Origin: Hirudinaria manillensis
Lineage: Eukaryota > Annelida > Clitellata > Hirudinida > Hirudinidae
Reading direction: 5' to 3'
Assembly (NCBI GenBank): GCA_034509925.1
Contig: CM067526.1
Span: 8,074,244-8,138,243, forward strand
Length of the DNA: 64,000 nt
Under the pieces are notes generated by a model. It had not been told where the DNA came from. It made no database searches and worked only from the letters and a program-made list of their open reading frames with translations. Positions 5,469-55,849 of the stretch are shown here, in pieces; position 1 is the first letter of the stretch; each line of letters begins with the position of its first letter. Both the position numbers and the translations under genes were made by a program.

Positions 5469-8400
5469 TCAGTCACTGCTGCCTAGTTCGCAATTCATTG
5501 CCACCTCCCCGCTCATGATGTCATCAAAAATGCTATCCCCATCTTGCTGGCCGTTGGAGAACATCGCGCTTCCTTCCGCGTTGCTCTCCCCGCACGAATA
5601 CGCGACTTCCGAGCAGCTTTCAAGCACGCCGGTTTCGGTAACGAGGGCGTCCTGCCTTTCTGAGAAGTCGTCGCAGACGGGTTCTTCCTCGCACGCTCCG
5701 TTCGATCGGCAGGGCGCAGACTCGGCTTTGGCTTTGCTCGATTCTCCGTTGATGGAGTTTTTGAAGTTGGCGACGAGATTAGAGAGAAACTCTGCCGTCT
5801 GCTGACTGAGTTCGGGAGTTCCCTTCTTGTTCGGAGGTAGGGGAATGATGGGCAGCTGCCCGGTCAAAGAGTAAATGGCTTGATTGACGGCGGCGGTTTC
5901 GACGCTCAGCTGCAGGGCCGCTGCCTCTGCCTCTCCCAAAAGAAGATTCTCTTTTGAATGGCCAATCATTACCTCATTTCCATTTCCAATTTCTATCCCA
6001 TTGAGTGCCTGTTGCTCCAACCTCTGTCCAATCTTGAGGGCTGCATGGTGGTTGAACAGAGACAGGCCAGATATAGTGGAGTAAAAGTGGGGATCGCTTT
6101 GAGTCAACGGCGGACGACCTCTCGTTCGAGTGAGGAAGGGACTCGCGGCTTCCATTCCGTCTGCTAAAGAAGTACTTATTATATTCACATCTCAGAAAAC
6201 ATAAAGTTTGTAATTCATGCTTTAATTTAAGAGACTCGACTTACCTTCTTTGAAAAGCCTTTTCAAATCCTTACGTTTATTGGCAAACCAATTTGAAATC
6301 GTTTGCACGCCGACCTTCTCTTTGTCTGAAAGGGCTCTTCCGGCTGCAATTAGACGGAGCTTCCAAAATTAGACGAACTTGTAATTCCAAATTTTACTTA
6401 AAACTTTGAACACTTTTCACCATTAAAATGAGTCAATTTAATAACATACATGCGAATAATTAACCGCTCGGGCACGTACTCAGTTTCTCGGTGGCAATGT
6501 TGCATGCTTTTGCAATCTCTTCTCTCCTTTTCAGAGAGGGATAATTCTCTTCCATGAAGCATTTTTCCAGGAGCTCCAAGTGGTTCGGTCGAAAGACGAA
6601 CCTCTCCCTTCTCGGGTAGGTGAGACCGGAGCTGGAGGACGTGCTTGGCACGGTGGTGACGGGCGGTGGGAGAACGTAACTGTCGGAATGATCCATCTCG
6701 ACGGAGGTTCCACCACTTTCGTTCAGGTCAGCCAGTCTGCTGGCTGCCAGCTGAGCTTGTCTGTTAGCATTCTCCTCTGAATCAAATAGTTTTACTTGAC
6801 TGCATATCTCAGTCATCAATTTTAAGTGAAATAAATGCATTTATTAAAAGCAAATAAAAATTGGATCACAATAAGTTCTGCCTTGTTTCCTTGCTAATTT
6901 TAAAATATTACTCCATGAGGGCCCAAATAGGGTTGCTCATACCTATAGCTGCTGGATTGTTCTTATAAGTGAGGTACCATTTCTTAATTGTCCTGCAACA
7001 TTTGTCAGACATCCCCATGTATTCTCCCTTCAAATACCTACTGATGTAAGCCTGGCTGATTCCTACATCAAATTGATATAATAAATCAAGCTAAAACAAA
7101 AATGTTAGACTCTGAGAAGTAATTTCATATTTTCATTAAATATTTCATTAGAATTCTAAATAAAATAAGATTGTGGTACCTGTCAGAGCTGCTATTTGAT
7201 GCTGTTTGACATTGTTTATGACAGTGAACTCTTTGATTTCTTCGCAGCACAATATTTCTTCTTGCCTTCACGAAAGAGAAAATGCATGCACTGAGCCTCA
7301 AAGTAAACACTCAATTTGTCAAAGACATAAGTCGCAATGAATAGGCAAGCATTTTGAACTTTTTGAAACTTCCAAGCTTTAGAGAGCCAATATTTGAACT
7401 ATTTTTTTTTTAGATATATTAGGATAATCAGATAAAAATGAAATTACTTCAGGAATGTGCCATCTTCATCAGCATCGTCCTTCACGACTCCATTCTTAAA
7501 GTTGAGTGACCTTCGAGTTAGAGTCCCTGCCCTAGTCTGTTTGTCATCTGAACCAGAAAGAGATTCCTCGGAGGCAGGGTTCACTTGACTTATTGGATTA
7601 CTCGAAGAGTTTGAAGTGACGGGCGTTTGAGGCTGTTGCGCGAGCGGTTGCTTGTCGGTCGGTGCCGTGTTGTTGTGCAGCTGCTTAATAATTTGTTGTA
7701 GCAATTGTTCCTGTTGCAAAGTCGACGTCTGAGGCGTCACCTTCACGGAGGACAGAGTCGGGGAGCTGGAAGAGACCAAGGAAGCTATTGTTTGTTGATG
7801 TTGAAGAAGTTGCTGCTGCAAAGGTAGCTGGGCAAACTGCTGAAGTTGTATAAGTTGAGATGGCAAAAGAGCAGTCGTAGCTGTGCTTGTCGTAGACTGT
7901 TGTTGTTGAGAGGCAGCAGCTGCTATAAGGGAAGTTATGATGGCCTGAGGAGACTGCGAATCAAAGAGATGCTTGGCTTGTTGCAATTGTTGCAGAGCCA
8001 TAAGCTGCTGTAGTTGCTGCACAACATTATTCTGTGGCTGTTGAGATTGCTGTTGGATCAATTGCTGTAAAACTGGAGACAAGTTGACTAGGGCCGTAGG
8101 AGGAGAGGCTTGAACGGCCGCGTTGTGTGCGGAATGCGTTTGATGGAGTTGTGCTTGCAACTGTTGAGGTAGTTGTTGAAGCTGCAGTGCAAGTTGAGAC
8201 TGCTGTGGTAATGGCGGCGACAGCAGTTGGGTAGCTGTTTGTTGTGGCTGATGTTGAAGTTGAGAACTTAAAAGAGATTGGGACACAGCCTGAGATAAAT
8301 TCAAAGGTAGGGAGGAAGTTAAGCTCGGTGCGGTGAGATTTTTGCCGACGCTCACTGTCGCAGCCACGGGCGTAATACTGTTGGAAGCAGCAGCTCCTAA

Positions 8401-9306
8401 TATCCCCAATTGTTGGAGAACTTGCATCACTTGGGTTTGTTGCTGTAATTGCTGGGAGGCACCAGAGGATTGCTGAGAAGTTGCTGACAATTGCAACTGC
8501 AAAGCATTTCCAGCAACGGCCACAACCGAGGTTGCGGGAGTGACGACAGATGCTGCAATCGCAGTAATCGAAGTTTGGCTCACGGAGGTTGATGCTTGAG
8601 GGGTCAGAGTGACCGGAATGATTGGCGATAAGAGTGGAGAAGTCATGTGAGGAATCTTTATACTGGAGAGAAGTGAGGTCTGAAGGTTTGTGGTCAAATT
8701 TGTGTTAGAGCTTGACATGGCTGGGACGAATGCCTGTCGACTCATAAGATTTTCTGCCAAAACTGCCACGGAACTTGAATTGATACCAGACTGAATAAAA
8801 TTAAAGAATATTTAAATTATTCAATATATATTTAATATTTGTTAATACAACTTATTTAGGTTCATATACTTATTTAGTCTATTCATATTCACTTGTGAAA
8901 TCACACCTTACTAATTGCAAAGTGTATGACTATAAAAAAATTAATATTAATTCATTAGTAGTACTCATAAATTGGAAAGAACAAAAGGTAATGTGCTAAT
9001 CGGTAATCACATGTAGCCTCTGTCCTCATAGTTTTTTTTTTTGATTGCATGTTTATATAACATTTGAAATTTTTCTAACAAACTGTTTTACTAAAGTTAA
9101 CTGCATTAGCAAACCTTCTGAGTCAATGAAGAAATGTTGACGATGTTTCCTAAGCATTGATCGATCAGATCGAAAGATTCGAATGCCATCAGGACCTGCT
9201 CTTTGGTCATTCCGCTGTTCCTAAGTCTTCTAATGAGCTCAGCCTGCTCCACTGTATACTTTTTCCCACCACTATTTGTCGGTAGAGACATCACGCAGCC
9301 TGGCAT
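5469..9306 (-). CDS. HMBOX1: HMBOX1/HOT1-like homeobox protein with large Gln-rich insert
   Basis: Seven exons on the minus strand: 9115-9306, 7448-8790, 7180-7265, 6943-7062, 6480-6776, 6245-6343, 5469-6160. The phases agree at every junction and give 942 codons plus stop. Exon 1 encodes an HNF1_N-type dimerisation motif (RLRNSGMTKEQVLMAFES), very like human HMBOX1. Exon 2 encodes about 447 residues rich in Gln, Ser, Thr and Ala. Exons 3-4 encode a POU-specific-like domain (ALTGISQAYISRYL). Exons 5-6 encode an atypical homeodomain (RRERFVFRP, REEIAKACN, then NWFANKRKDLKR). The last exon keeps the vertebrate-like C-terminal motif VETAAVNQAIYSLTGQ. Human HMBOX1 binds double-stranded telomeric repeats and acts in transcription; that role here is inferred from homology. 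The start at 9306 has A at -3; a second ATG lies five codons downstream. HNF1 itself was considered, but order and C-terminus favour HMBOX1. Confidence 0.9.
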
Positions 9307-10033
9307 CCTCACCTTTACAACATTTGTGAATGACGATCTTTCCTCACGCGTTCGTACTTCAAAAGACGTATTTATCAATTGTTCTACAGCAAACCTTTTC
9401 GAAATACAGAAATGCACACGCTATACAGCATATACAGCTCTAGCTCATATTAATTACACCACCGAAATAGAAACCGTCACAAAAATAAATAAGATTTTTT
9501 ATTTTTAAAAGTTAACTTAAAAGCCTTTTAAGAACGATTCTCGTCGAACTAAATGAGTCAACGCAAGACATGACGCTGCTCGGAACTGAGCTTATAATGA
9601 AAGCAGCTATTCTGGTACAGAATAATAAGGGAGGCCGTTCGGTCTTCAAGCAGTGGAATAATAATTTATTGATCGATGTTAATTAACCAATTCTTGCCAA
9701 GGAATAACCACTCATTTAACGAACCTATGCAGCCGTTTTGTGAAGCGAAAGTGAATTTTGATATTTATGGAGGCCTTTGTGTGGAATTTGGCGCCTTTTG
9801 AGGCGATTTCAGGCGAAAAATATGTTAGGAAAATGTAATAACAAACAATTGAAATATCGAGCTAGCTTTTTTAGGGATGTGCGTAAAAAAGCGCATGGGA
9901 TCTTATCAAATATTTTTTAATATTTTATGTGATGCTTGTTAATTTTTTTTATTGTTTGTCAAACTTTTAGATATTCCGAGGAGAACGTGCTTCATGTCTA
10001 AATACTTTAACAACGTTTGGAACGGTTTCTCAA
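9307..10033. other. Spacer between HMBOX1 5' end and SELENOP 3' end
   Basis: About 0.7 kb without a supported gene. It should hold the HMBOX1 promoter and 5' UTR. A frame open upstream of the chosen HMBOX1 start (to 9417) has no recognisable content and is treated as 5' UTR. Confidence 0.5.
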
Positions 10034-10039
10034 TTTATT
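10034..10039 (-). terminator. Poly(A) signal AATAAA for SELENOP
   Basis: The minus strand reads AATAAA here, about 180 nt after the proposed terminal UGA and about 95 nt after the SECIS-like hairpin. The order stop, SECIS, poly(A) signal is as expected for a selenoprotein mRNA. Confidence 0.5.
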
Positions 10040-10132
10040 AGTGTATTACAAAAATCATATAATGTTTGCCAAAAACGCTTATTGCTTAATACTAGGAAAA
10101 TAAGCATTCATTGAATCTATAACAAATGCTAT

Positions 10133-10200
10133 CCGCAATGATTGTTCGGGGACTCAGCTGCATCTCTGCTTTTGCTGAGTTCTTTCATGAACATTGTCGG
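10133..10200 (-). promoter_or_regulatory. Candidate SECIS element of SELENOP
   Basis: On the minus strand a hairpin with SECIS-like parts can be drawn. ATGA lies at 10188-10185. Eleven bases later AAAA (10173-10170) opens the apical loop. The stem ACTCAGC pairs perfectly with GCTGAGT. A GA dinucleotide at 10147-10146 sits opposite the ATGA. Below the core, GTT/AAC, CAAT/ATTG and CCG/CGG can form a bulged lower stem. Three A-C oppositions lie between the quartet and the perfect stem, so the fold is not ideal. The element starts about 17 nt after the last UGA in frame. In vertebrates SelP has two SECIS elements; I see only this one. Confidence 0.6.
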
Positions 10201-10216: not shown

Positions 10217-12474
10217 TCATTCAAATTTCTCTGTTATGACTTCTCTGTGATGTCGTTCTATCCCAAATCAAATCAGACATGTTGAATTTGAGTTGCTCTG
10301 GTTATCAGTGGCGGTAACCGAATGATCAAATCAGGGTGAGTGTCACAAGGAGCCCACGGATCATAGTCATTGCATTGTGCCATTAATTGGTTCAGGATAC
10401 GTGTCATTGGTTCATTGATTTCAGTGTTGTTCCATGCTTCAGGATCACTGCCAAATGGTTCCATCTAGTTGACAATGCAAGTTTCATATTTCATTAACCC
10501 CTTGTCAAAGGCAGGTCTGCGGGTCTCATGAAATCCTTGATCATTCTCAAGTTTCTCCAGCTCCAGTGAATCATGGTCATTGAGCAGGAGCAGAGGGTCA
10601 CGGTCATTGGTTATGTCAGAGTATTTCTTGTTGGTTTGGACAAGTGCATATTAAAGGGCCACTGTTACTCCCAGATTGGCGACAGTTACAAGATGTGGTG
10701 AATGAGCTTCTGTGCTGAAGATCATATGCAGGTTCAGTTCGGATTGGATTTAGAAGAGGTTGAGCATAGCGAGTACAAAAGGGATCTGATACTGATGCTG
10801 TGTTAGGTGATTGCTGACAAAAAGTGAATGAAGCAATTTTAAGTTAAGCATTTAAAATTTTATGAAAGCATTCATACCTGACAACTACAATCATCAAAGG
10901 AAATGTGACAAATGTATTTTCTGGCATTATTTCTTGAATGCCTAGACCTTCCACAGTGTTCTTGCAAGAAATTATTAGTGAGTTCACAGTAACATTGCTT
11001 ATCTGGTCCAGTTGTTCTAACATGTCTGATTGTGCATGAACATCCATTCTTTCTTATCCCATTTTCGAATGAATTTCTTTCTTTGCAGATGCATTCCGAG
11101 TTAGGTCTCTGAAGTAGAGATTGCAGGTAATGACAGCATCTGGTATAAAAATGTCTCAAATGCTGATGCCTTTCAGCTGTTCTTCCTTCCTGGCAATCCT
11201 CTTCTGTAACTGTAGATCAAATCACAGCCAGCTGTTCCTCTCTGTTAACACTTCTTCTGACATGGTATCTAAATGTATCAGAACCTCCAGAAAGGATGGG
11301 TTGGAGATTAGTGGTACATGGTTCCCTATTTTGTCAGGATGCTGCACATGGACTTGCTGACATGACTTTTGTTATGGTTGTTTCAACAAATTGATCATTG
11401 ACATCCGATAAGGGGAAAGGCAAATAATTAGTCAGCAAACCTCAACTGCAATGACAAAATTTATATCTTTTTGAAATTTTTTCTTTGAAATAGATTAATT
11501 TAAAAAAAAATTGTTAAGCAGTCATTCTATAACAATATTAAGACCTGAGTTTTGAAGGTAAGGATTTGAGAATTCTTTGTTAAAAATGAATTTAAACAAT
11601 TTACTTAAAAGCTTTCCAACACACTGAGCAATTCTAACTAATTCAGTTCCAATTAATAACAATGTTTACCTGTCATAAATGAAGAGGTCATCTTGTGATC
11701 CACCTAGCTTGCTGTATAGATCATTCTGGATGGTAGATTGAAAGACAGGGAATCTAACCCCTTGAAGGTGAACTGGTGACAAATTTTCTTCACCGGAAGC
11801 TATATGTAAATGTCCATTAATACCCATGAACTTGACCTTTGGATTGGAGTTGCTGTATCTGTCACTTAAATTCTGCAATCTAGAATGGAATGATACATCT
11901 TCATAGCATTCAGTTGCCTAATAACTTTATAATAAAATAAACCATTTAAAATGAGTGTTTACATCAAACTTTATCTTATCAGTTTAATTCATTTTATGAA
12001 ATTCAATACTCAGAATTTGTTTAAACTAGTGGTGGATCTTATTTTGTTATTTTTATACTTTTTGCTGGGGGGCAAGGCAGATTTTAAAGTGACTCTTCTA
12101 ATTTTAGCATTTTTTTATGCCTATCATTCAATATTTCTAGTTAAATTCATCAAATATTAGTGTTTGGCCATCGAATGGCTGGTGTTTGCAAGTTGCAGAA
12201 TACAATTTTAAATAAGTTCAAAACCTTGGAGAATAAACTCCAACTCACAATCTAGCTTGTTGACTGCTATAGCCACTAGTTGCTTGCACGAGAGCAACCA
12301 CAACCACATTTCCAGAAGAATTAAACCAGTTGTCATTAACTTCTTGAACGTTTCCATTTGGACCCCTGAACAGTTTGTTTCTGTTCAATCACAGAGAGTT
12401 GTTGAAATTCGCGTCGGCAAGTACTACCAGTGAAAGCAGCACTGCCAGTGGCCCTAAGGCCAAAGGCCCTTTGA
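10217..12474 (-). CDS. SELENOP: Selenoprotein P, selenocysteine-rich (5' exon not located)
   Basis: Four exons on the minus strand: 12249-12474, 11670-11879, 10878-11445, 10217-10813, with consistent phases and good splice sites; 532 residues read if UGA is Sec. The N-terminus has a signal-peptide-like stretch (LAVLLSLVVLADA), then NSSGNVVVVALVQAT and SQDDLFIYD, matching the thioredoxin-like domain of SelP (human VTVVALLQAS and KDDFLIYDRCG). Four UGAs lie at 12389, 11442, 11334 and 11217 (low ends); the first two align with cysteines of human SelP (SSLC, YDRCG). The middle exon is Cys-rich. The last exon has 19 UGAs between 10618 and 10268, then UGA at 10219-10217, taken as the stop because it is only ~30 nt from the SECIS core. 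The frame holds no UAA or UAG until 10081. SelP is secreted and carries selenium between cells. The UxxC redox motif is replaced by SGYS. No in-frame ATG lies in the first exon shown, so a further 5' exon is needed. A normal annotation would call this a pseudogene or miss it. Confidence 0.85.
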
Positions 12475-15400: not shown

Positions 15401-17278
15401 GTTAATACTAATATTTATAATTGCAACGACAATTAATTTATAGAGGAGTTATAATTGATTTTTAGATGGGATGTTTTTTCATTAATTTGCGAGCATGGAA
15501 TGTCTTGAATTAGAAAATAATTTGACATAAATAATACAAAAATTAAAAAAAAAAAAACAAACTTTGTGAAACCTTCGCCAAATTCCAAGTTTGAAAACGA
15601 GGGTCGAAAGAATTGAAACAGGATACGAAATAAATTGCAATGAAAATCGATAAAAGTAGATTTAAAGAAAGGAAATATCGTAAACAATGCTTCATAAACA
15701 ACACAGACTTGGAAGTTTCGATAGTTTATTGCCATCAGGAGGATAATATTGATGTTCCCAGGATGACTTAACCCTTCTGATCATAAAGTATGAATCTTGA
15801 ATCCGTAAATTTGAACTCCGCTGATTTCACTTGGAGTGCATTTTAATTTAATTTCTGAATTGAAGTAGATTCGAAATGGAGATTAATGAAAACCTACGAC
15901 AGAGAGGCAGATAGTTCGATTGATAGTCCATCTTAGTGATTGAAAGTCTTGATTGAGAGGTCAATCAACGATTGAAATATTCAAATGTTCAATGAGATTG
16001 GAGACCATTCGAGTGGCCATGATTATAGTAATGACGGTGATTTGGTAGGCTTTGTTAAGTCCAGAACATTGCTTTTTTGAATATCATTTACAATCATTAT
16101 CATTACGACGTCCATCGTCAGAATCATCATCATCAACAACATCACAGGAAATTCAATATTAATTCAAGTGAAAAATAAAATTTTTTTTTTCTAATTCCGT
16201 CAAAAATACTTCAAAGTCTTTCCAGCTTTAAGCAAATTGAATCCAATCAGTCTATCAATTTCTGCGGGTCTTTAAAAATTTATATAGATCACTTATTATC
16301 ATTTGTTAATGATAATCATCATTAATTTAAAATAATTCGTTTAACCGGATATCAATTAATCAATTAGTCAATCAATCAATCAATCAGTATCGCGGAGCAT
16401 TTGAGATGAATTGGTTGATCAAATGTCATATTTGTTAAATCACATTTTTGTCATATTTATTAAATTAAAGCAACAACAACGTGCAAGTTATAAATGTAAC
16501 GTTGCGTTACCTTTCCCACGACAAAGTCCTAACAAAAAATCTTAGAGCACATCATCTTTTGGCACGAATTCATGGTTTCGTACGATTTGCAACCAGAAGC
16601 ATTTGCGTGCAAACTCTTATTTCATGTTCAGTCAATTTTTTTTTTGCAAGTTCATAAACATATTATTGATTGACACATATTAAAATTATTTATTAACATT
16701 ATTTATTTTTAATAATTTATATTTTCAACAAATAAAACAAAGTTTTTTGTTATTTTGCGCTTCAAAAAGCAGGTAAAAACATTCATTACTTCCAGGCAGC
16801 ATCACGCATTCTTTTTACTTCACGACATTCGCCATAATTAAGAAGATAATTATGTCATTAAAATAAATACTTTCTTTGTCATATTATTTACATTGTCTAT
16901 CCAGTGACCAAATCCATTCATGCATCCATCCACCCATCCAGCCATCCATCTGTAATTCTGCAGCTCGTCCAGCACAGTGGTTTGCATGTCCTTATCAGTA
17001 ACATCTCCGATGTTTTGCTCAGTTGGACAAATAATGATTTTATTTTGGGGATATAAAAGCACAATCCGAAATAAACTTTCCATTTGTTCAAATAAATAAA
17101 TGAAGATTTTTAACTGTAACTGTTATGGTTAAGTCCTTAATGCAAAACGATGAAAAATGGTGATGATGATGATAATGATGATGACGAATCTAAGGCGAAC
17201 TACTTACTAGAATTAAGCCTCGTCTATTGGTAAAACTAACATTTACGTTTCATGTCATGTTCTATAAAGTTTCCGATC
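12475..17278. other. Spacer, possibly holding the SELENOP first exon
   Basis: No coding exon could be supported. The missing 5' exon and promoter of SELENOP should lie here. Visible structure: a GC-rich palindromic patch at 15096-15115, short ATCA runs near 16370-16388, and CCAT/GGAT runs near 16920-16950. Small frames at 13075-13269, 15433-15735 and 16850-17083 look random. Confidence 0.5.
15096..15115. repeat. GC-only palindromic patch
   Basis: Twenty consecutive G/C bases flanked by AT-rich sequence. CCCGGG occurs at both ends and GGCGCGCC within. Base composition differs sharply from its surroundings. Confidence 0.85.
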
Positions 17279-17749
<471 letters not shown>

Positions 17750-20700
17750 TCAGTTTCCTGTGACCAGTTGAACATAAGGACAAGACACCCTTCGATAGCC
17801 AACCGCATGTTGCACGGTGAGTAGATCGCAATTGACTTCGCTATCCCTACTCGGTTCTCCGTCCCCCGCCGTGAGATCTCTCAGTCCTCCGGTGGATTGT
17901 GAACTCTCCATCGTCTGAGTTTCCTCGAAAGCATCACCGTTGACGCCTTCCTCGTTGACAACGCAGAACGAAGGTTGACAGCTGTCGACCGACGCACCGA
18001 TGCAGAACTTGGAATCAGCCCAGGTAGTGGACAGCCGGGAGTTTGTGGACGATGGCTGTTCCGTTTGTACAGAAATTGGCGCCGGAACCACGACTCTCTG
18101 GTTGCGGTCAAGAAGGGATATCGACTGGTTGCGACGAAGGACGCTCACTGCCGTGACGTTCGATGCTGGCAGCGAAGATGCAGCCCAGGGACGCAGAGGT
18201 GTTTCGTTGCTGGTCGACGAAGAAGGTAGCATGGTTTCTGAAGTTGGGAGCATGGCATCTGAAGTTTGACCGGACAGGAGGGATGTAGAAGTTGTCGTTC
18301 TTCTGAAATTGGCAGAGTGAAGGAAGGCAAAAGAATGTTTCTTTCGTGAGGCCAAAGCAAACAGGTGGCCTGTACTTCCGCTGTTATTTATGGAAGCTGA
18401 AGACGGTGAAAAAAAAAGAATTAACAAGAAAATAAGAAGATAATATATTCCATCCTAAGAGTTCTCAGGGCTGATGATCAATAACTTACTTTGCTTAATA
18501 AATACAATCAATTTGTGAAGCAATTTTCTAAACGGAGTGCAGTTTTATCGCAAATCATAATTAAATGGCTACAGTCAGCCTATAATTATCTATTATAATT
18601 GTAATTATATTGCAACCAACCTCTCAATCGACTCCTGAAAATGTCGCAAAATGAAATTAATTTTGCAACAAAATATGACTTCTGATAAGATCTTAAGAAC
18701 TCCTTAGGCCCCAAAAAATGCTCCAATAAATAAAAACCGTCTTTCAGTTATTCTTACGATAAATTGTGCCAAACAAATTTGTTACAGCAACGATAACATA
18801 ATGAAATTTAGACCAAACACATATTATTATTATTATTATTATTATTACTACTATTAATAGTAGTAGTAATAGTATTACTATCAAAACGATGTTTAAAATA
18901 ACGTGGATTCACATAATCTTCATTCACAAATCACTTTTAATCACTTCGAATGGATACCTTTCGCCTGTGCAGTTGTCGATTGTTCGCCTGAGCAGTTGGC
19001 GCCATTTTCGTTGATGGTCGGCAGCGTCAGTTGCGTGCCGTTGTTGGCGCTGTTGTTGCTGGACGATGTGCAGCCGTTGCTGCCAGAACTTGCTCCAGCC
19101 AGAAGTAGGAGCGACGTGCAACTGGTTTTGTGGGCTCCCAAACCGTTGCTTGTGGTGTGGTTGTGGTGGTTGTGGTGGTAATGCGACGGTCGCTCTTTCT
19201 GCTGCTTCAATTTGGCCGCTATGTCGTGCTTCAGACTGCGGTAGTTGTCGCGACTCGATTTTTCTCTGAATACCTGAAACTCCTGCAGGTACTTGTTTAT
19301 TTGGACATCTTCCAGGACCTGAAAGTTGGATGAAAGTGGCGACGATGGTGATGACGATGACGATTTTGAATTCCAACGGATGGACACGCATAAATATGGC
19401 TCAAAAAGAAATTAGTTTTGCATGCGGAGATGAAAATTTGTCAGAAGCGATTGGCTGGATTGTCAATCTATTAATAAACGTGCAAGTGACGCAATGGCCG
19501 GTTAAGCTTTAGCCACAGTCCGTCCTTTTGCAATCAGGGATTGATGTCTCGCGCCAAGAATTTGCGTGGAAAAAAGCTGCAAATGTTTAGCAAATATGAC
19601 CTCAATGTTTGACTAGGAAAAAAAGAAAGTATAAAGTTGCTGCACAAACATCGAACGATTAACAAGGAGAAGAGAGGACGATAGAATAAAAGGAAAGTAA
19701 ACTTGGAACAAGGAAGGAATAAATCATCGGGAGGCGAATGAAGGGTGCGACATTTTCGGAGAGAATTTCGAAACTTACATTAAACTAGTAGTTCAAAAAT
19801 GATGATTTATTTTTTAACCAAAGTAAATGATTTCAATTGTAATGGGTCACTGTGTGACTGAAATTCGATTTAAAAAAAAATTATTTTCAGCTTTCTAATT
19901 GTAGAAAAAAGCCCATCTTATTACATGTTAATGCTCATTACATTGCATGTTGAAAATATTTTCATTAATAAGTTTGCAAAACAAGCAGAATTTGAGGAAG
20001 AAAAAATATTTGAAGCGTTAAACTCGAAGCAACACTGGAAGTTCGCATGCTTTGAGGAAAAGCTCCATTTGTTTTTAGTCTGGCGGATCTGGAAAGGGAC
20101 CATAGTCCTCCCTTGTTAAAAGAAAGAATCTAATTTTTTAAAGCCTGACGACCGGGAAAGACAAAAAGATATTAATTTAAACTTTATGGTTACATTTATT
20201 TACTTAGACTGCATACATTACACTTACTCAGTGTTTAAATTACGTTTGCTTACATTACATTACATTACGTCACATTACAATTACGTTCATTTTCCCGGGT
20301 CTGGTCCTTCGCCAGGGCTTTTCTCCTTTTCCAAGTTTTGGTTCCCGCCAAATTGTTTTTAGATCCACCAACGTTTGCTTTAATTTTAAAAGATTTAGAT
20401 TTTTAGATAAACTCTCCAAATAACTCTCCAAATAATTTTCTACGTCGAATTACATTTAAGTTTTACATTTAGGATTGAAGAATTTAGTAAATTATAATAA
20501 TTAAGATATTAACGCTTTAAATTCGGATAAAAATCAGAGCTAATATTAGTAACATCCATCGGCTATTTTTAAATAATTATTCTGAAGAAAGCTGATGAGA
20601 TGGGGATGTTCTCAAAACATGCGACTTCCTAATTGGTTGTTGCAAGGGAATCCAACAAGTCTCCATTTGTGGCGTTAATTAAGAAAGTAAGAACATTTTT

Positions 20701-42740: not shown

Positions 42741-43512
42741 TTACTGAGTTTTGTCATTTATTTAGTAATATGATATCAGTTCTTTGCATTCCTTACAATT
42801 ATTTGATGCTAACATTTTGTGATGGAATTAATTTGATTTAATTCATTAATTTTTTTCTCTGGTCATGTTTCATCATCAAAATATTAGTATTATTAATAGG
42901 TTTAGTATTAATGTTTTTATAGTTAGTGAACATTTGTTATTAAAGTAATTGAAGGAAGATATTTACCAGTGCCTACTATGTAACCTATAGGCATGCTCAG
43001 CCATTTCATAGATATTGGTTTTATTTCTTGTTTAGACATTAAATGAATTATTTCTTATTCATTTTAATGTTTTAATAATTGTGAAATGATGTTTTGGCAG
43101 GTTTCATTTTGTATATCATGGCATTATTTTCTTTGTTTTATCATATATTTTATTTTTATTGTGCACTTCATGTTCCTATGTCATCTGATAGTATTCATTA
43201 ATTATTTGGATTTAACCTGGTTTTAAATATTCTGTCCTTCCTTAAAATTTATTCTACTTTCAATAAATGTTCATATGAGATCTATAAAATTGTTTTTACG
43301 ATGAAGTCTTTTTCTATTTGTAAGTTACTGTTTAAAACTAGAATTTGATGAGGTACATTGAAAAAGAAATGTGTTTTCCCAAGATGTTGGGATTGATGTT
43401 AGCAGAGTCCGTCAATTTTGATTTTTTAAAACGAATGCAATATGGCACCTAAAGTTTTCTTTAGTTTACTTAGATAAAAAAGTGAATCAGTCTCACCCAC
43501 TTCCATGTCTCA

Positions 43513-43760
43513 GACGAGGGAGCGTTCATCGATGGGAGGAGCAGTGGACATCCAAAGACGGCCAAACCACACCAACCCTTCCTCGCGCTCAGTGAAAGGC
43601 GTCAAGACTCGTCATCCCGGTTTGGGTACCAGAATCAGTTTTGACTGACGTCCTGGCGAATTCAACTAAAGAGATGATCCCTAGAAGTATGACTCTGAGG
43701 AACTGACGCTACTCGCCGGCATATTAAGTAGGACAAGGAACATAGGTTGTGGTGGTTCAA
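43513..43760. repeat. Duplicated block, copy 1
   Basis: About 250 bp that recur, by eye at roughly 85-90 % identity, at 44237-44500 in the same orientation. Both copies share long perfect stretches such as CAACCCTTCCTCGCGCTCAG and GAGATGATCCCTAGAAGTAT. Copy 1 lacks nine bases present in copy 2 near 44280. The block is GC-richer than its surroundings. Confidence 0.9.
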
Positions 43761-44117: not shown

Positions 44118-44236
44118 CCGCTTACGAATAAACGGAAGCTAAGAAAAGGCACCTTGTCTGTAGCAGAAATTAACTTTAATTCGATAAAAAAAGTTGGAAC
44201 CAGTCGGAAAGCGACTCTCACCTCCCCACTCGCCTG

Positions 44237-44500
44237 AGACGAGAGAGAGCGTTCATCGACGGGAGGAGCAGTGGACGTCTTCGTTTCCAAAGACGACCAA
44301 ACCGCGCCAACCCTTCCTCGCGCTCAGTGAAAGGCGCCGAGACTCGTCATCCTGGTTTGGGTACCAGAATCAGTTTTGACTGACGTCCCGGCGAAGTCAA
44401 CTAAAGAGATGATCCCTAGAAGTATGACTCTGGAAATGGTCGCTTCTCGCCGGCATGATGAGTCGAACAAAGAACACCGATTGCGGTGTTTAAATGACTT
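44237..44500. repeat. Duplicated block, copy 2
   Basis: Second copy of the block described at 43513. In one plus-strand frame both copies stay open over about 40 codons and end at the same TGA (common end FGYQNQF), but differences are mixed, so coding is doubtful. Confidence 0.9.
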
Positions 44501-46955: not shown

Positions 46956-49900
46956 ATGTCTGGAAGAGCAGAAGCCGGAGGAGACATGGTTTTGATCAGA
47001 GGAAAGGTGATTTGGAGAATATTTTCTTGATTAATTAATATTATCCAATTAAGATTGTTCTGAATTAAGTGCGAAAGAAACCAATCTATGCTAATTGAGC
47101 TATTGTTTGATTATTTGCAAAGTACGTAGGATGTTCCACACATTAAAATTGTATTGTTGTGCTACTACGTCATCGACTTTGTTGATCATCAAAAAGATGA
47201 TCAGAACGAAAATACAGGTATTCATTGATGGAAGTTCGTAAGTCGGTGGGCATTTAATTATTTCAGGAGTCATTAGTTTCTTTGCTCTTGACTTTTATTA
47301 AACTGGTTTCTTTTGTAAAATCACATCAATTGCACGACTTGATTTCATCGCTGCAATAATCTCAAACGAGCCACGATGAATCCAATACTCTTGTTCTTCG
47401 ACAGCTTGCAGCCAAGTACGACCAGGCAGCAGAGGCAGAGGTCATCGAATGGTTTCGTCAACTCCTGAGCCTCAACCTGCCTGACGGAATGATGAACCTC
47501 AGCAGAGCTCTGAGTGACGGTCAAGCACTTATCAAGTTAGTTACCGATCCTGTCAATGTGGTTATCAAAGATTCTCCAGTTAATTAATACCAATTAAGTT
47601 AATTAAAAGATAAATAATTAAAAAATATCGATTGGGCTAGAAATTGTTTTAAGAAGTCAATTACAGCTAAAACTTTGAATTGTGGTAGCCGGAAATAGGA
47701 TAAAATCTTTCCTTAGGGTTGTTTATTCAAGATTTTACTTTAGTTTAACTTAAACACCTGATAAAAAAGACACTTTTTTATACAGGTTTTACTTAATCAC
47801 TTTTGATGGTAAATTGGGCAAATTAATTGATGTAACATTAGGACAACTTATATATTTACTAGACAATATCATCAATAAATTGATGATCTATTTCTTCATC
47901 TTTTCAGTCTCGCTAAGGTGGTTCAGACAAATTCTGAATATTGTCCACCAAATGCCGCCAAGATGGCCCTGAAAGGCAACAAGGGAGACGTTCCTTTCAA
48001 GCAGGTAGAATCCCTTGTTGAACCGCATTGACGGTAAATCGTTAAATAGAATCCAAGCATCAAACCTGCGTGAAGGTCGGTCGAATGCGGCAATAACGGC
48101 GACAGCCCTTATGTGTCGTGTTCAATACTCACTATGCACCTCCAGGGAATGCCCTCGGGCGGGTAGATATACAAATAACGACCGATTAAGAAGTGCCTTC
48201 GCTTGTTAGGATGCATTCAAAATATTAGCTAAGCACATTTATATTTTTCCAGATGGAAAATATCCAAACCTTCCTCAACTTCTGCGAAAATTACGGAGTT
48301 CCACGCAACAACCTTTTCCAGACTGTCGATTTGTACGAATGCCGTAACATGGCTCAAGTCTTGGCTTGCATACAGGGTCTTGGAAGCGAGGTACATTTTC
48401 TGCCATTTTATCCCAGCGAAACGAAACTTAATTATTAATTAACAAGTAAATTAAAAAGTAGAATTTTAAAATTCCAACAATTATTTAAAGTCAACGGACA
48501 ATCAAATTTATTAGGAAGTAATGAATAGGAACAAGCACTCATGCTTTAAATGAGAATATAGTAATATTTACGATATCAATTCAAGAAATCAATGTATGCA
48601 GTATTCGATAATATTTCATTAGTGAGTCGTTTAAGTCTTAAAGTCATTAGTGTTAGTAAATAAAATATAATTTATTAAAATAATAATTTAAAATAATTAA
48701 CATAATTTATTAAAAATTATTATTCAGTGTCAAAGAAATGGATTCAAAGGTCCAGTCATTGGACCAAAGCCATCTGAAAGGAACCAAAGGAATTGGTCAG
48801 TGGAGCAGCTAAGAAAGGGTCACACTATCATTGGTCTGCAGTCCGGAACAAACAAATTTGCCACCCAATCAGGAATGACCATTGGTGGAGTGAGACATGT
48901 TGCCGATATCAGAGCAGACGATTTGATCAAGGAGGGCCAAGGAGTTATTGGACTGCAGGCTGGCACAAACAAATTCGCCAGTCAAAAGGGAATGAGAATC
49001 GGAGCTGTAAGACACGTGGCTGATATCAGAGCAGACGATATGACAAAGGAAGGTCAAGGTGTGATTGGTCTCCAAGCTGGAACCAACAAGTACGCTACAC
49101 AATCAGGAATGACCATAGGAGGTGTTAGGCATGCCGCCGATATTAGGGCTGATGACATGACAAAGGAAGGACAGGGCGTGATTGGTCTGCAAGCCGGTAC
49201 GAACAAATTTGCTACCCAATCGGGAATGACCATTGGAGGAGTAAGACACGTAGCAGACATCAGAGCCGATGACGTATCAAAGGAAGGCTCTGCTGTCATT
49301 GGTCTGCAGATGGGCACCAACCGTTGCGCCAACCAATCTGGTTAGCTCTATAATTTGTTTTAACTAATTCATATTCGAATATATTAATACCTTTAATGGT
49401 GATAATCAGTAGTGGATCATTACAAGTTAACCCCAAAATTTTTCTAGATACAAATTCTAGTTATGTTTAATCATGTAATATCAATCTTTCTTAAAGGAAT
49501 GACTTTCGGAGGAGTCCGACATGTTGCCGATATCAGGGCCGATGATGTCACCAAAGAAGGTTCTGCTGTTATTGGCTTGCAGATGGGCAGCAACAAGTTT
49601 GCCAACCAATCAGGAATGAGCTTTGGTGCCGTTCGTCACGTCGGTTAGTTGCTACTTCAACGATATACATTGTAAATCATTGCATTGTGAGTTCGGGTTA
49701 AAAAGGGTTATAAAATTTGTGAGAAATATTTGAGCAATATTAAATATATTTATTGGCAACGCTTCAATAATTAACAAGAAAAATGATCGTCCTCAGCTGA
49801 TATCAGAGCCGATGACTTAACGAAAGATGGATCTTCAATCATTGGTCTCCAAATGGGCAGCAACAAATTTGCCAACCAATCAGGAATGAGCTTTGGAGCA

Positions 49901-50741
49901 GTGCGTCACGTTTCAGACATCAAGGTAGGGAATGATAATAACACCATTTCTTCATTCTCTTTGTCGATCAGGAATTGCTTCCATTTCTTCTATTTAATCT
50001 GTCAAATCAAGGTAGAAAATAATATCAATCGTCATGCGTTTCTGATAGGTCGACGAACTGTCCAAAGAAGGAGCAGGTGTTATCGGACTTCAGATGGGCA
50101 CAAACAAAGGGGCCAGTCAAACTGGAATGACCTTTGGGGGAGTTCGTCATGGTGGCGACATCAAGGTTATTTACTGTCGCCATTTATCTAAACTCTCCCA
50201 TATCAAAATATTCCCCTTTCCACACATTTCATCCGATTTAGCATTTAATATACTAATTAAAAAATTACTTCTTTCACTTTTTCCGCGTTTCGCAAATTTG
50301 ATTCTTCGAACAAACCTATTATTAATTAATTTGTCCTCAATAATAAGCTATATCTAATCTCATATATTTCAAATTTATTAAAAAAAAAACATTTTCCTCA
50401 TTTATTGTTGTAATATAATTGCTAAAGTTAAGTTTTTTTTTAATGTAAAGGTTGAAGAGCTGTCCAAAGAAGGTGCTTCCGCTGTCAATCTGCAATATGG
50501 CAATCCCCACGGTGCCAACCAATCTGGTATGTCATTTGGAGGAAGAAGAGACATTGGCGGTGTCTCTCCACAAGACAACTACTACAACCAGGGCTATGGA
50601 CAGGACCCCAACAACTATTACGGACAAGACCCCAACAACTACTACGGACAAGATCCTAACAGCTACTATGGACAGAACCCCGGCTATTACGACGGACAGG
50701 ACCAGAGTGGCAACTACTATGGCCAAGAAGCAACCTACTGA
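46956..50741 (+). CDS. Calponin-family protein: CH domain plus nine CLIK repeats
   Basis: Nine exons: 46956-47006, 47405-47535, 47908-48004, 48253-48390, 48728-49340, 49497-49643, 49797-49924, 50049-50165, 50451-50741; 570 residues, consistent phases. Residues about 18-140 are a single type-3 calponin-homology domain (EVIEWFRQLLSLNLPDG, FLNFCENYGVP, NMAQVLACIQGLG). Then come nine calponin/CLIK repeats with the core VIGLQxGTNKxAxQSGMxxGxxRHVxDI; the ninth is degenerate (VNLQYGNPHGANQSG). Repeats 1-5 share one large exon, while 6-9 are split among small exons. The C-terminus is a Tyr/Gln/Asn-rich tail with five GQDPNNYY-like units. Vertebrate calponins have three repeats; higher numbers occur in invertebrate relatives such as UNC-87. 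CLIK repeats bind and stabilise actin filaments, so a role in muscle or the actin cytoskeleton is likely. Confidence 0.93.
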
Positions 50742-52045: not shown

Positions 52046-55000
52046 TCAAATTTGTCCAGATTTGAAATTTGACACTGAAAATTCTTCTTCAGATTCACTC
52101 TCAAGTCTTTTGAGTTCCTCTTCTCTGATGGTCTCAGGAATTGAAGCTTTGCCAGTGACAAATGTTTTGACTATTTCTCCTGTTGATTTGCCATTGTATC
52201 TTCTGTTTACTTGGTGGGCTGCTTCTAGGTGCGAGTATCCCTTAAGATCCTTGCGTCTACCTTTGAGATATATTGCCATTCCGACGATAACAGAAAGAGG
52301 CAACACAAAAAGACAAAGTACGACAATAAAAATCAACGTCAACTTGTACTTTTTGTCCTCGACTCCATCTAAGTTATTTCCTTGATCATCAATCAATGTC
52401 TTCCCAACAGGCCTTCTGTGATATGTGACTCCAACTTTTTTTGAAGCCTTTTGTTTGTCCATGCTTGGAGCAGAATCGAATTTTAGGACGAGTCCGGGTT
52501 TATCTGCGATGGCAATTATCACGAAGCTTCCATCCGGACTGACGGTAATGTCATGAGGAGAAGATCCTGGATTGTGAAGAGGTGGCAGATTCCACTTTGA
52601 AAGAATTCTCCCCTGAGCTGGATCCACAATCATAGCAGTGAATATCTTCATTTCATGAGAATCCCCAAATGACACTTGTCCATTGACACAAAAAAGTTTT
52701 TCTTTTGCTGAATTGTAAGAAATTGCAAACAGTTCTGGTTTGAAATCATCTTGTCTAATTTCTTTCAGAAGCTTTCCTGTTGCATCATAGCTCAAAATCT
52801 TTGCATTCAACCTATCTGCAACATAAACAACTCCAAGAATTTCATCAATAGAAATACTATGTGGTAGGCCTGAGTTGCTATTCAATTCCCATGATTTCAA
52901 AAAAGTCCCAAATCTATCAAAGACCACGATTCTATTGTTACAATAACCGTCGGCAACATAAACATATCCAGTAAGATTGGTGGCAACACCTGCAGGCTTG
53001 CAGAAATGATTTGCATCTGATCCTGGCATAAACTCAGTGCCCAATGTTAATGCAGGTTGGATAATGCCATCAGATTTCAAGGAAGACAACTGAAATTTGA
53101 ATACTTGGTGCATGGCCACATCAGTAACCCAAATGGATCCTTCCCTGCTGAAGTGCAGCCCGTGAGGCAGATAAAAAAAATCTCTACCCCAGAAGTTGAT
53201 TGGAATCCCAGATGTAGCATTTAGTTGTACAATAACATTCTCATTTATTGGACCTGATCTTCTTTTCTGGTATATGTGACTGGAATCAAATGAATCACTT
53301 TCCCAAACCGTTTTCCCTCTTTGAAGAACATAAACAAATGAATTATCAGCAGAAACTCCAGACACCTGTCCAAATAGGAAATCACTTGGTAGTCTTGGCC
53401 AGTTATTAACAGGTTGAAGCAAAATCTCTTCGGTCGAATTAACATTAGCATGACTCGAAGTGTGATGATGGTGATGACCTGATTTATGACCTTCTCCAAG
53501 GGCATCAAGTTCAGGATTAGGTGGTAAAAGCTCAGTTGCTTCTGCAGGAGCATTTTTGGACAACTCTGGAAATTGGTCATTATCGCATAAAGTTATTGGC
53601 CTATTGTCATTGGAAGATTGGTAGTACATGATGTAAAAGTTGCACATCTCATCATTGTGTGTGCCACCTATATGTACATCACTCTCAAAACCTTCAGAAC
53701 TGTATACGCATTTTGCAACAAGATAATCATTATTCTTTATGGTGACCCCACTGTTGGCAACAGGCCAAAATGCCTGTGGCCAGCTTGGATTTCCTTTGCC
53801 AATTTGTGTCCAATTAGAACCATGTACCACATAAGCACTTATCATCAAACCCAACATGTGAGCATGAACCCTGAAGGCAAAAGGGTGGAGTTCAGAATTG
53901 TCAGTGTAAATGCATGAAACATTGCCTATAATCCTCTTTTTGTTGGCAGGGATGACCACATTAGAAGAATCCATAAGAAGAACACCTGCAGAATTTGGTA
54001 ATTGATCACTAGTTATCTTCATCAGGAGCTGAGTCTGATCGGGAAGGTTTATTACAGTTCGATAATGCACTTGGATCTGGAGATAGTCGATAAATTCATC
54101 CCCAATCACAAAGCCAACATCTTTAGGAAGATTTGTGGATGGGGCATTTCTGGCCCATGCAAAATATATGTAACTTGGTTGACAATCCCCATCACAATCT
54201 TTGGCATGCCCAAGTCTATTTGGTGAACCTGAACAGGCAAATAGGAGTAAATGGTGGACGTCTGGATTATCAGGAATAACTTCAAACCCAATGATGAAAT
54301 GCTTGCCAGAAAATGGAGGAGACCAATCCATACACACATAGGTATCTTCATCTGATGTTGTCACATTTGGCATTTGAATTTTATAAAAATCTTTTGAATC
54401 AGAAAGTTGGTTGTTATAAGAATTGTGGCTGTGGTCATGGTTTAGCATATCATCATGATCTCCACTATCTTCACGAGGCAGAAGAGACTTTACTTCAGGC
54501 GGTAGGGAAGACAAGACATTCTGGGAAGAGTCGCTATCACAAGTTGGTGCAATGGAATCAGCTTTCCTGTAGTACATGAGATTAAATTCACATATTTCAC
54601 CAATTTTAATACTAGGACTAGACAAGCAAGCCAGTACTAAATCATCTCCTCTAGTTATTGTACTGCTTGAGTTTATATGATGAAATGCTTGAGATGAATG
54701 AAGATTAGGTTTTCCAAATTTGATCCAGTTTTCACCCTTTTTCATGAAGCCTCTTACCAAAGACTCATTTGAAGAAGCGAAGGCAAATGGATACAGTTCA
54801 ACATCATTGTGAACTTCGCAAGAGGCCAGTCTAATCATTTGAGAATCACTTGAATTGCTTAATTCATTTAGTGTCACAGCTATCACTCCAGCTACATATG
54901 GTTTAGGTTCAGTATCAAGATTCAGCATAACACCTGACTTGGAGGTTGATGCATTACTTAAGTGAATCTTCAATTTAAGGTATTCAATAATGCTATCACC

Positions 55001-55390
55001 AAAAATTTCAAAGGCTACTTCGTTTGGTAAGGTGACTGACTCTATATTTTTATCAAAAACATAAAGCAGCTGTTCATTTTTACACTTTTTTGTGCAATCA
55101 TTCCAAAAAAGACTTGCATCCTGATCCCCTGAACACCCCATCACCAAAATCCGTTGATCATTTAAATTTCCAAGAAGTGGTTTAAAACTAGTGAGAAACA
55201 TCTTTTTAGATGGAGTCAATTTCCATGTTGTGCAAATATAATCACCACTTTTACTTTGGGTATCGTTTGGCATCAAAATTTCGTAAGATATCTCCTTGGA
55301 ATGAACAGATGTAAGCACTGCAAGTGAGAAATAAAAGAAGACACAAAACCATATGCTAATGTTGGACCAGCTGATATTTCTTCGAATCAT
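52046..55390 (-). CDS. PAM: Bifunctional peptidylglycine alpha-amidating monooxygenase with an extra dead PHM domain
   Basis: A single uninterrupted frame of 1114 residues; the frame is open upstream but 55390 is its first ATG (A at -3). A signal peptide (FCVFFYFSLAVLTSVHS) leads into two PHM-type domains. The first (about 34-275) has lost nearly all copper ligands: the HH pair is QR (79-80), the HxH site is gone, and the Met is Ile (266); one His (143) remains. The second (about 335-595) keeps VHH (379-380), VHY (442), HAH (509, 511) and the EMCN Met (582). A His-rich linker (about 636-643) leads to the PAL domain (about 665-970) with Arg 691, zinc histidines in LPHGL (743), LPHSI (844) and SPHDI (946), and DGYCNNR Tyr (816). 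A membrane helix (1017-1042) and acidic cytosolic tail follow. PAM converts C-terminal glycine of neuropeptides to an amide in secretory granules, using copper, ascorbate and oxygen, then zinc. Confidence 0.95.
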   Translation of the reverse strand: MIRRNISWSNISIWFCVFFYFSLAVLTSVHSKEISYEILMPNDTQSKSGDYICTTWKLTPSKKMFLTSFKPLLGNLNDQRILVMGCSGDQDASLFWNDCTKKCKNEQLLYVFDKNIESVTLPNEVAFEIFGDSIIEYLKLKIHLSNASTSKSGVMLNLDTEPKPYVAGVIAVTLNELSNSSDSQMIRLASCEVHNDVELYPFAFASSNESLVRGFMKKGENWIKFGKPNLHSSQAFHHINSSSTITRGDDLVLACLSSPSIKIGEICEFNLMYYRKADSIAPTCDSDSSQNVLSSLPPEVKSLLPREDSGDHDDMLNHDHSHNSYNNQLSDSKDFYKIQMPNVTTSDEDTYVCMDWSPPFSGKHFIIGFEVIPDNPDVHHLLLFACSGSPNRLGHAKDCDGDCQPSYIYFAWARNAPSTNLPKDVGFVIGDEFIDYLQIQVHYRTVINLPDQTQLLMKITSDQLPNSAGVLLMDSSNVVIPANKKRIIGNVSCIYTDNSELHPFAFRVHAHMLGLMISAYVVHGSNWTQIGKGNPSWPQAFWPVANSGVTIKNNDYLVAKCVYSSEGFESDVHIGGTHNDEMCNFYIMYYQSSNDNRPITLCDNDQFPELSKNAPAEATELLPPNPELDALGEGHKSGHHHHHTSSHANVNSTEEILLQPVNNWPRLPSDFLFGQVSGVSADNSFVYVLQRGKTVWESDSFDSSHIYQKRRSGPINENVIVQLNATSGIPINFWGRDFFYLPHGLHFSREGSIWVTDVAMHQVFKFQLSSLKSDGIIQPALTLGTEFMPGSDANHFCKPAGVATNLTGYVYVADGYCNNRIVVFDRFGTFLKSWELNSNSGLPHSISIDEILGVVYVADRLNAKILSYDATGKLLKEIRQDDFKPELFAISYNSAKEKLFCVNGQVSFGDSHEMKIFTAMIVDPAQGRILSKWNLPPLHNPGSSPHDITVSPDGSFVIIAIADKPGLVLKFDSAPSMDKQKASKKVGVTYHRRPVGKTLIDDQGNNLDGVEDKKYKLTLIFIVVLCLFVLPLSVIVGMAIYLKGRRKDLKGYSHLEAAHQVNRRYNGKSTGEIVKTFVTGKASIPETIREEELKRLESESEEEFSVSNFKSGQI

Positions 55391-55849
55391 TCTGTCACCG
55401 TTGCAGCTGACTAATACAACCCGAAAACACAAAATCTGAAATCGCAGCACGCGAAAATTCACGAACTACACATTTATAGGTATATCACCAACTACGTGCA
55501 GAATTGGATTGGACAAACACTCACGTAATTGGATTTTTACCTTCAAAATAGTGTTATATAGAATTTGGCCTATATTCTCGCATGTAAAAAATATTTTAAA
55601 TATGTTCTATTGCATTAGTTAAGATAATTATTATAATTATCGTTGTGTCGAAAAAGCATAAGCAAATATATAAACGTTACATGGTCACTCAAATTTAATA
55701 AATAAATATATCTTTAGATTTTTTTATTATATGCCTAATTTCAATCATGATTTGTACTTTTAGCCACATCATCGTTTTAGAGCGCGCAAGTTGTTTTGTT
55801 AGTTTTTATTTAGTCCTCGTAGCGATCCGAAAATAAGAGAGTTTTGGAT
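55391..55849. promoter_or_regulatory. Shared upstream region of PAM and ESCO
   Basis: 460 bp between diverging start codons. It must hold both promoters; no specific element is certain. Confidence 0.5.

Follow-up and report, generated by a model that had tools for sequence, protein, structure and literature searches.

On the minus strand of the window (the whole stretch of 64,000 nucleotides of Hirudinaria manillensis DNA analysed here), four blocks are separated by GT-AG introns (369, 224 and 64 nt) and join into a single reading frame that very probably belongs to a working selenoprotein P (SelP) gene, in which 23 UGA codons would be read as selenocysteine (Sec) through one SECIS element. 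The exon borders were picked to suit this frame, which is free of UAA and UAG, unlike the other two frames of the joined exons. The features of the locus are:

12249..12474, minus strand: exon 1, an open frame with a signal-peptide-like stretch, the start of the thioredoxin-like domain, Sec1 and the SxxS site; donor GTGAGT
12391-12389, minus strand: Sec1, UGA in exon 1, codon 28 of the known frame
11670..11879, minus strand: exon 2, an open frame with the remaining thioredoxin-like core, no UGA; SelP_N match
10878..11445, minus strand: exon 3, in which the SelP_N match ends, with a Cys-rich region
11444, 11336 and 11219, minus strand: Sec2-Sec4, UGA codons in exon 3
10217..10813, minus strand: exon 4, Cys/Sec-rich tail as far as the presumed stop UGA24
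10268..10618, minus strand: Sec cluster, 19 UGA (10618 to 10270) in 117 codons, several as UxU
10217..10219, minus strand: UGA24, presumed terminator, judged by its distance to the SECIS-like hairpin
10133..10200, minus strand: SECIS-like hairpin, from our own fold scans and descriptor; Rfam negative
10039 and 9953 (region 9948..10039), minus strand: AATAAA polyadenylation-like signals; others at 9921 and 9670

The locus has the look of a pseudogene because ordinary translation reads UGA as a stop. The original prediction held that a SelP gene is hidden in this apparent pseudogene, and the homology, splice sites, codon usage, hairpin and Sec-decoding genome described below concur. Its coordinates and its count of 23 UGA codons are exact, provided that the UGA at 10219-10217 is the stop: ahead of that position there is one UGA in exon 1, three in exon 3 and 19 in exon 4. 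The crowding of 19 UGA codons into 117 (10618-10268) was also recovered exactly. The frame had further been said to lack UAA and UAG across the whole gene, as it does; past UGA24 it continues through an in-frame UGA25 at 10156 to a first UAA only at 10081, with no UAG.

Exon 1 opens on a hydrophobic, signal-peptide-like stretch in a frame without a located start codon: the roughly 3 kb upstream allow 47 formal joins to a start exon, and none of the 25 listed was convincing. Profile searches of the genome (148 Mb in 23 contigs), with the best candidates scored, found one SelP locus. It has introns, and is therefore not a processed copy.

Several other features lie elsewhere in the window. On the minus strand, 52046-55465 holds an intronless frame of 1139 residues in which NHL repeats come after two copper monooxygenase (PHM) modules, an arrangement like that of a peptide-amidating enzyme whose PHM part is doubled. 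Two U3 snoRNA genes (43486-43696 and 44199-44431; 62.8 and 107 bits) and the DNA-binding domain of a Tc5-type transposase (1052-1492) are on the same strand. The plus strand carries five stretches of calponin-family repeats at 48701-49345, with a similar frame next to them at 49787-50191, and a long simple repeat at 17194-17824 in which three frames are open and which reads SINQSINQ.

One contig of 15,581 bases (C23) is the mitochondrial genome by content: cox1, which is sensible under code 5, cox2 and cox3 were placed by Pfam in that order. After cox3 come a frame without a Pfam match that we take to be nad6 and then, as we presume, the start of cytb, nad1, nad3 and nad2, all on one strand. 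As far as the contig could be read, this order fits that of annelids; together with the mitochondrial code, it suggests an annelid. A full-length cox1 with a score equal to the C23 copy is also found at C9:3026446-3027786, and represents either a nuclear copy or a misassembly.

SelP homology and the redox site

With Cys written in place of Sec, the spliced product matches the Pfam family SelP_N (PF04592) over residues 48-181 (1.4e-14, 54.5 bits, cut-off 23.2). In the raw genome, taken exon by exon, SelP_N reaches 18.1 bits and stays under that cut-off. BLASTP against an approximate human SelP sequence gave 33% identity (49/149 columns, E 2e-15). Both the Pfam match and this alignment uphold the SelP homology that had been proposed for the locus. 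A PDB sequence search with the product found no similar entry at E values of 1 or below.

The UxxC redox motif seems to be absent from the predicted protein: human Q-A-S-U-Y-L-C (again from the approximate sequence) aligns ungapped with Q-A-T-S-G-Y-S, and both the Sec and the Cys of the motif seem to be Ser here, i.e. SxxS. The first two UGA codons had been thought to fall on cysteines of human SelP. This holds for the second (11444), which the alignment places on the Cys of YDRCGR in the approximate human sequence, but not for the first (12391), which lies outside the BLASTP alignment and reaches the Cys of human SSLC by eye only, via a gap.

According to PMC2397514, the first Sec is among the SelP positions that are nearly 100% conserved in vertebrates, and SelP forms with Cys and forms without any Sec have been reported, so that UxxC is typical of SelP and not strictly defining. 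The replacement of UxxC by SxxS suggests that the protein is probably a selenium store or carrier and not a reductase, and we regard it as a putative dedicated selenium carrier.

Stop codons and codon usage

The triplet frequencies on the minus strand of the window are 0.0239 for TGA, 0.0302 for TAA and 0.0092 for TAG. The original prediction had argued that UAA and UAG should be at least as common as UGA in decayed DNA of this kind; this is right for UAA and for the sum of the two, but not for UAG alone, as TAG is rarer than TGA. Under these frequencies, at least 19 TGA per 117 codons have a probability of 5.7e-11, and zero TAA or TAG over 578 codons one of 8e-11. Dinucleotide shuffling of the cluster (n=5,000, giving 15,000 frames) yielded no frame with 19 TGA, the maximum being 18. 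TAA/TAG-free frames were common among the same shuffles (3,946/15,000), and the absence of TAA and TAG inside the cluster alone is weak evidence.

The codon-usage score was trained on four stretches elsewhere in the window, chosen for their long open frames; two of them have no Pfam match. In the cluster, the UGA frame scores 0.198 and the other two frames 0.026 and 0.067, and all of 628 overlapping background windows are below 0.198 (maximum 0.110). The SelP frame is also the top of the three in exon 1 (0.231), in exon 2 and, narrowly, in exon 3 (0.045 vs 0.037). At 10813-10619, the part of exon 4 that precedes the cluster, it scores below both other frames (0.047 vs 0.145 and 0.063), which counts against a SelP gene.

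Two other readings of the locus bear on these numbers. The first is that of a decayed SelP pseudogene whose frame has stayed open by chance, which would agree with the failure to find a start codon among the 25 listed of the 47 formal joins, and with Ser at the positions of both the catalytic Sec and the catalytic Cys of the approximate human sequence. Such a copy would nevertheless have had to escape every UAA and UAG before 10081, at P ~8e-11 under the local triplet frequencies, while keeping its GT-AG sites intact, coding-like codon usage in its cluster and a SECIS-like hairpin in place, and we consider it improbable.

The second is that the UGA-rich exon is read in another frame, or that an early UGA is the stop, which would leave the tail in the 3′ UTR. 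In exon 4, frame 1 contains 2 TGA, vs 21 in the SelP frame, is open over two long stretches and is the frame preferred by codon usage at 10813-10619 (0.145 vs 0.047). The same frame, however, carries 3 TAA and 4 TAG over the exon, one of them inside the cluster at 10465, and within the cluster it is the UGA frame that codon usage prefers (0.198 vs 0.026 and 0.067). As for an early stop, UGA1 at codon 28 would end everything ahead of the tail. Both forms of this explanation strike us as even less probable than a pseudogene, and a translated SelP frame remains the preferred reading.

The SECIS-like hairpin and the Sec machinery

Downstream of the SelP frame is a candidate SECIS element. The hairpin has a lower stem CCG-CAATG/CATTG-CGG, ATGA at 10188-10185 followed by an 11-nt helix side, an apical loop AAAA with a small extra stem, and GA at 10147-10146; its helix contains two A-C mismatches in addition to the outermost pair. 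A constrained-fold scan of minus 10300-8501 ranked the site at 10188 first. A stricter fold scan over both strands of the window placed the hairpin second of 9, behind a site at minus 9294.

That other site, about 900 nt downstream of the SelP hairpin, was considered as a second SECIS. It has a slightly better fold score (-20.3 vs -19.6), yet was set aside because it is downstream of the polyadenylation-like signals and inside a presumed HMBOX1-like frame. The frame belongs to the next gene downstream of SelP (window 5469-9420, minus strand), which has two long frames with no Pfam match at 0.01; we take it to be an HMBOX1-like homeobox gene, with minus 9294 presumably within its first part. 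One candidate is in register at the SelP locus, in place of the two-SECIS arrangement of vertebrates, a point against the SelP reading.

As a yardstick, we used four SECIS elements of the same genome, those of a GPx, two SelO and a SelT gene, each with a UGA-containing selenoprotein upstream; the identities of the SelO and SelT genes are presumed. The four elements and the hairpin have in common the order ATGA, 11 nt, an AAA apical loop, 11 nt and GA. A descriptor of this register that demands at least 7/11 pairs has the hairpin as its sole match in the window, with 8/11 pairs, compared with 8 or 9 in the yardstick elements. Shuffled sequence totalling 7.68 Mb contained 1 match at a level of at least 8/11 pairs with all 6 loop-side pairs formed, and 27 without the loop-side demand; these rates are somewhat flattering because the candidate was already known when the descriptor was written. 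The loop-side demand excludes two of the four yardstick elements as well, with 4 and 5 of 6 pairs.

The Rfam SECIS models gave nothing at the SelP locus, which is not among the 5 places that they listed genome-wide. This silence is not strong evidence, because the genome's own GPx element, at 22.5 bits, is also under the model's cut-off of 35; the yardstick elements together range from 22.5 to 24.5 bits. The fifth place, C3:1076721, is the best Rfam match (30.2 bits), and no selenoprotein was recognised in the 1.5 kb upstream of it. It was left out of the descriptor, as was a GPx-b SECIS candidate.

The genome appears equipped to use Sec, judging from its tRNA-Sec, SepSecS, SPS2, GPx, SelO and SelT genes. 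Three tRNA-Sec genes with a UCA anticodon lie within 2 kb on contig C2 and score above the cut-off, as do exons of SepSecS. The SPS2 gene reads GMKGUGCK, with single SPS exons each under the family cut-off. In-frame UGA codons are present in two GPx, two SelO and one SelT gene, at what we take to be the Sec sites of these known families; a third GPx-like place (C1:977897) lacks such a codon. Decoding of UGA by non-Sec means, for example by a suppressor tRNA, is hardly credible in view of the three tRNA-Sec genes, the single-UGA selenoproteins with UGA at the presumed Sec sites of their families, and the SECIS-like hairpin.

Some of these genes occur in repeated form. The SelO-like genes are a near-identical pair at C5:8286802 and C5:8309492, each with a SECIS-like element, and SPS exons of equal scores form two sets separated by about 43.65 kb, close to the end of a contig (C5:33770 and C5:77421), which reflects either a duplication or an assembly effect. 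At C11:6153689-6173371 there are 41 tRNA-like matches to the tRNA-Sec model (43.4 bits, below the cut-off) at a regular spacing of 490 nt, perhaps a tRNA-Ser array.

The end of the protein and a possible carrier role

Measured to the ATGA of the hairpin, the distance is 79 nt for UGA23 and 28 nt for UGA24; UGA25 falls within the 3′ arm. Most simply read, the protein ends at UGA24, which we consider likely; this codon may act as a stop because it is only 28 nt from the ATGA. Type 2 deiodinase, with its second UGA, offers a parallel. For Sec insertion, the minimum distance between UGA and SECIS is 51 nt, as cited in PMC3737529.

A stop at UGA24 departs from the rule, given in PMC3473315, that virtually no TGA serves as a stop in selenoprotein genes. 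This rule would favour a protein that ends at the UAA at 10081, with UGA24 and UGA25 as Sec (25 in total) and the hairpin within the coding region. The frame is indeed open through to 10081, its codon usage after 10217 is the highest of the three by a little (0.024 vs 0.005 and -0.147), and exceptions to the minimum distance are described for ciliates (PMC4967479). Against a 25-Sec protein stand the position of UGA25 in the 3′ arm of the hairpin and the 28 nt between UGA24 and ATGA, shorter than the 51-nt minimum cited in PMC3737529. We judge such a longer protein unlikely, and continue with UGA24 as the presumed stop.

Vertebrate SELENOP has UxU motifs, as does the tail here. It differs in having UxxC and two SECIS elements, where the present locus has SxxS, one SECIS candidate and a last UGA that is probably a stop. 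Mollusc SelenoP (Baclaocos et al. 2019) is reportedly encoded with up to 132 UGAs; it is likewise a very Sec-rich protostome SelP, with a different number of Sec. The succession of a SelP_N thioredoxin-like domain, a Cys-rich region and a Sec-rich region over the main coding exons is the same as in vertebrates (PMC2397514), where SELENOP has 7 to 18 Sec (PMC4699779) vs 23 here. Sea urchin SelP, which is from a different phylum, has 28 Sec and shares with the present protein an invertebrate origin, many Sec, a conserved N-terminal domain and a tail that cannot be aligned to other SelPs (PMC2397514), in keeping with the earlier statement that multi-Sec SelP is known from invertebrates. In the engineered mouse Sepp1 U40S (PMC5133445), the first Sec, in the thioredoxin-like domain, is also replaced by Ser; there only the Sec is changed, whereas both Sec and Cys are Ser in the natural protein proposed here. 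Among six invertebrates including the annelid Capitella, SelP was found only in amphioxus and Lottia (PMC3473315), and the titles and abstract beginnings of the small part of the literature that we searched held no report of an annelid SelP.

In the mechanism that we propose, a ribosome would meet UGA1 at codon 28, right after the signal-peptide-like stretch. With selenium present, SECIS-bound factors and tRNA-Sec would insert Sec at UGA1 and at the 22 later UGAs, the single hairpin in the 3′ UTR redefining all 23; with selenium absent, the leader alone would be produced. As UGA1 comes at codon 28, no useful product would be made without Sec, and the selenium supply would therefore gate the whole product. 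UGA24 would be too close to the SECIS for redefinition and would end the protein, which may be a secreted Cys/Sec-rich carrier of up to 23 selenium atoms. Taken as a whole, a natural SelP without the redox site (UxxC to SxxS), acting as a dedicated carrier, with its synthesis gated by UGA1 and with UGA meaning Sec 23 times and then stop by nearness to the SECIS alone, is a tentative proposal that we hold to be possible, somewhat short of probable.

The tail may record how it grew. Exon 4 contains three copies of a 19-nt DNA repeat, each of them inside the cluster (10609-10591, 79%; 10582-10564, the reference; 10372-10354, 74%), and every copy reads Q-U-x-U in frame. This is modest evidence, consistent with tail growth by duplication of a UxU module.

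Sec-rich SelP is already known from invertebrates, and what makes this copy interesting is its SxxS site, together with a terminal UGA so close to the SECIS. The locus is also an example of a gene fragmented by ordinary translation. Its 23 Sec-UGAs, one SECIS and a terminal UGA at 28 nt would provide a natural test of how distance decides between insertion and termination. SelP usually combines the roles of redox enzyme and selenium carrier; if the proposal is true, a natural SelP that lacks the redox residues and keeps a rich Sec tail would separate these two jobs.
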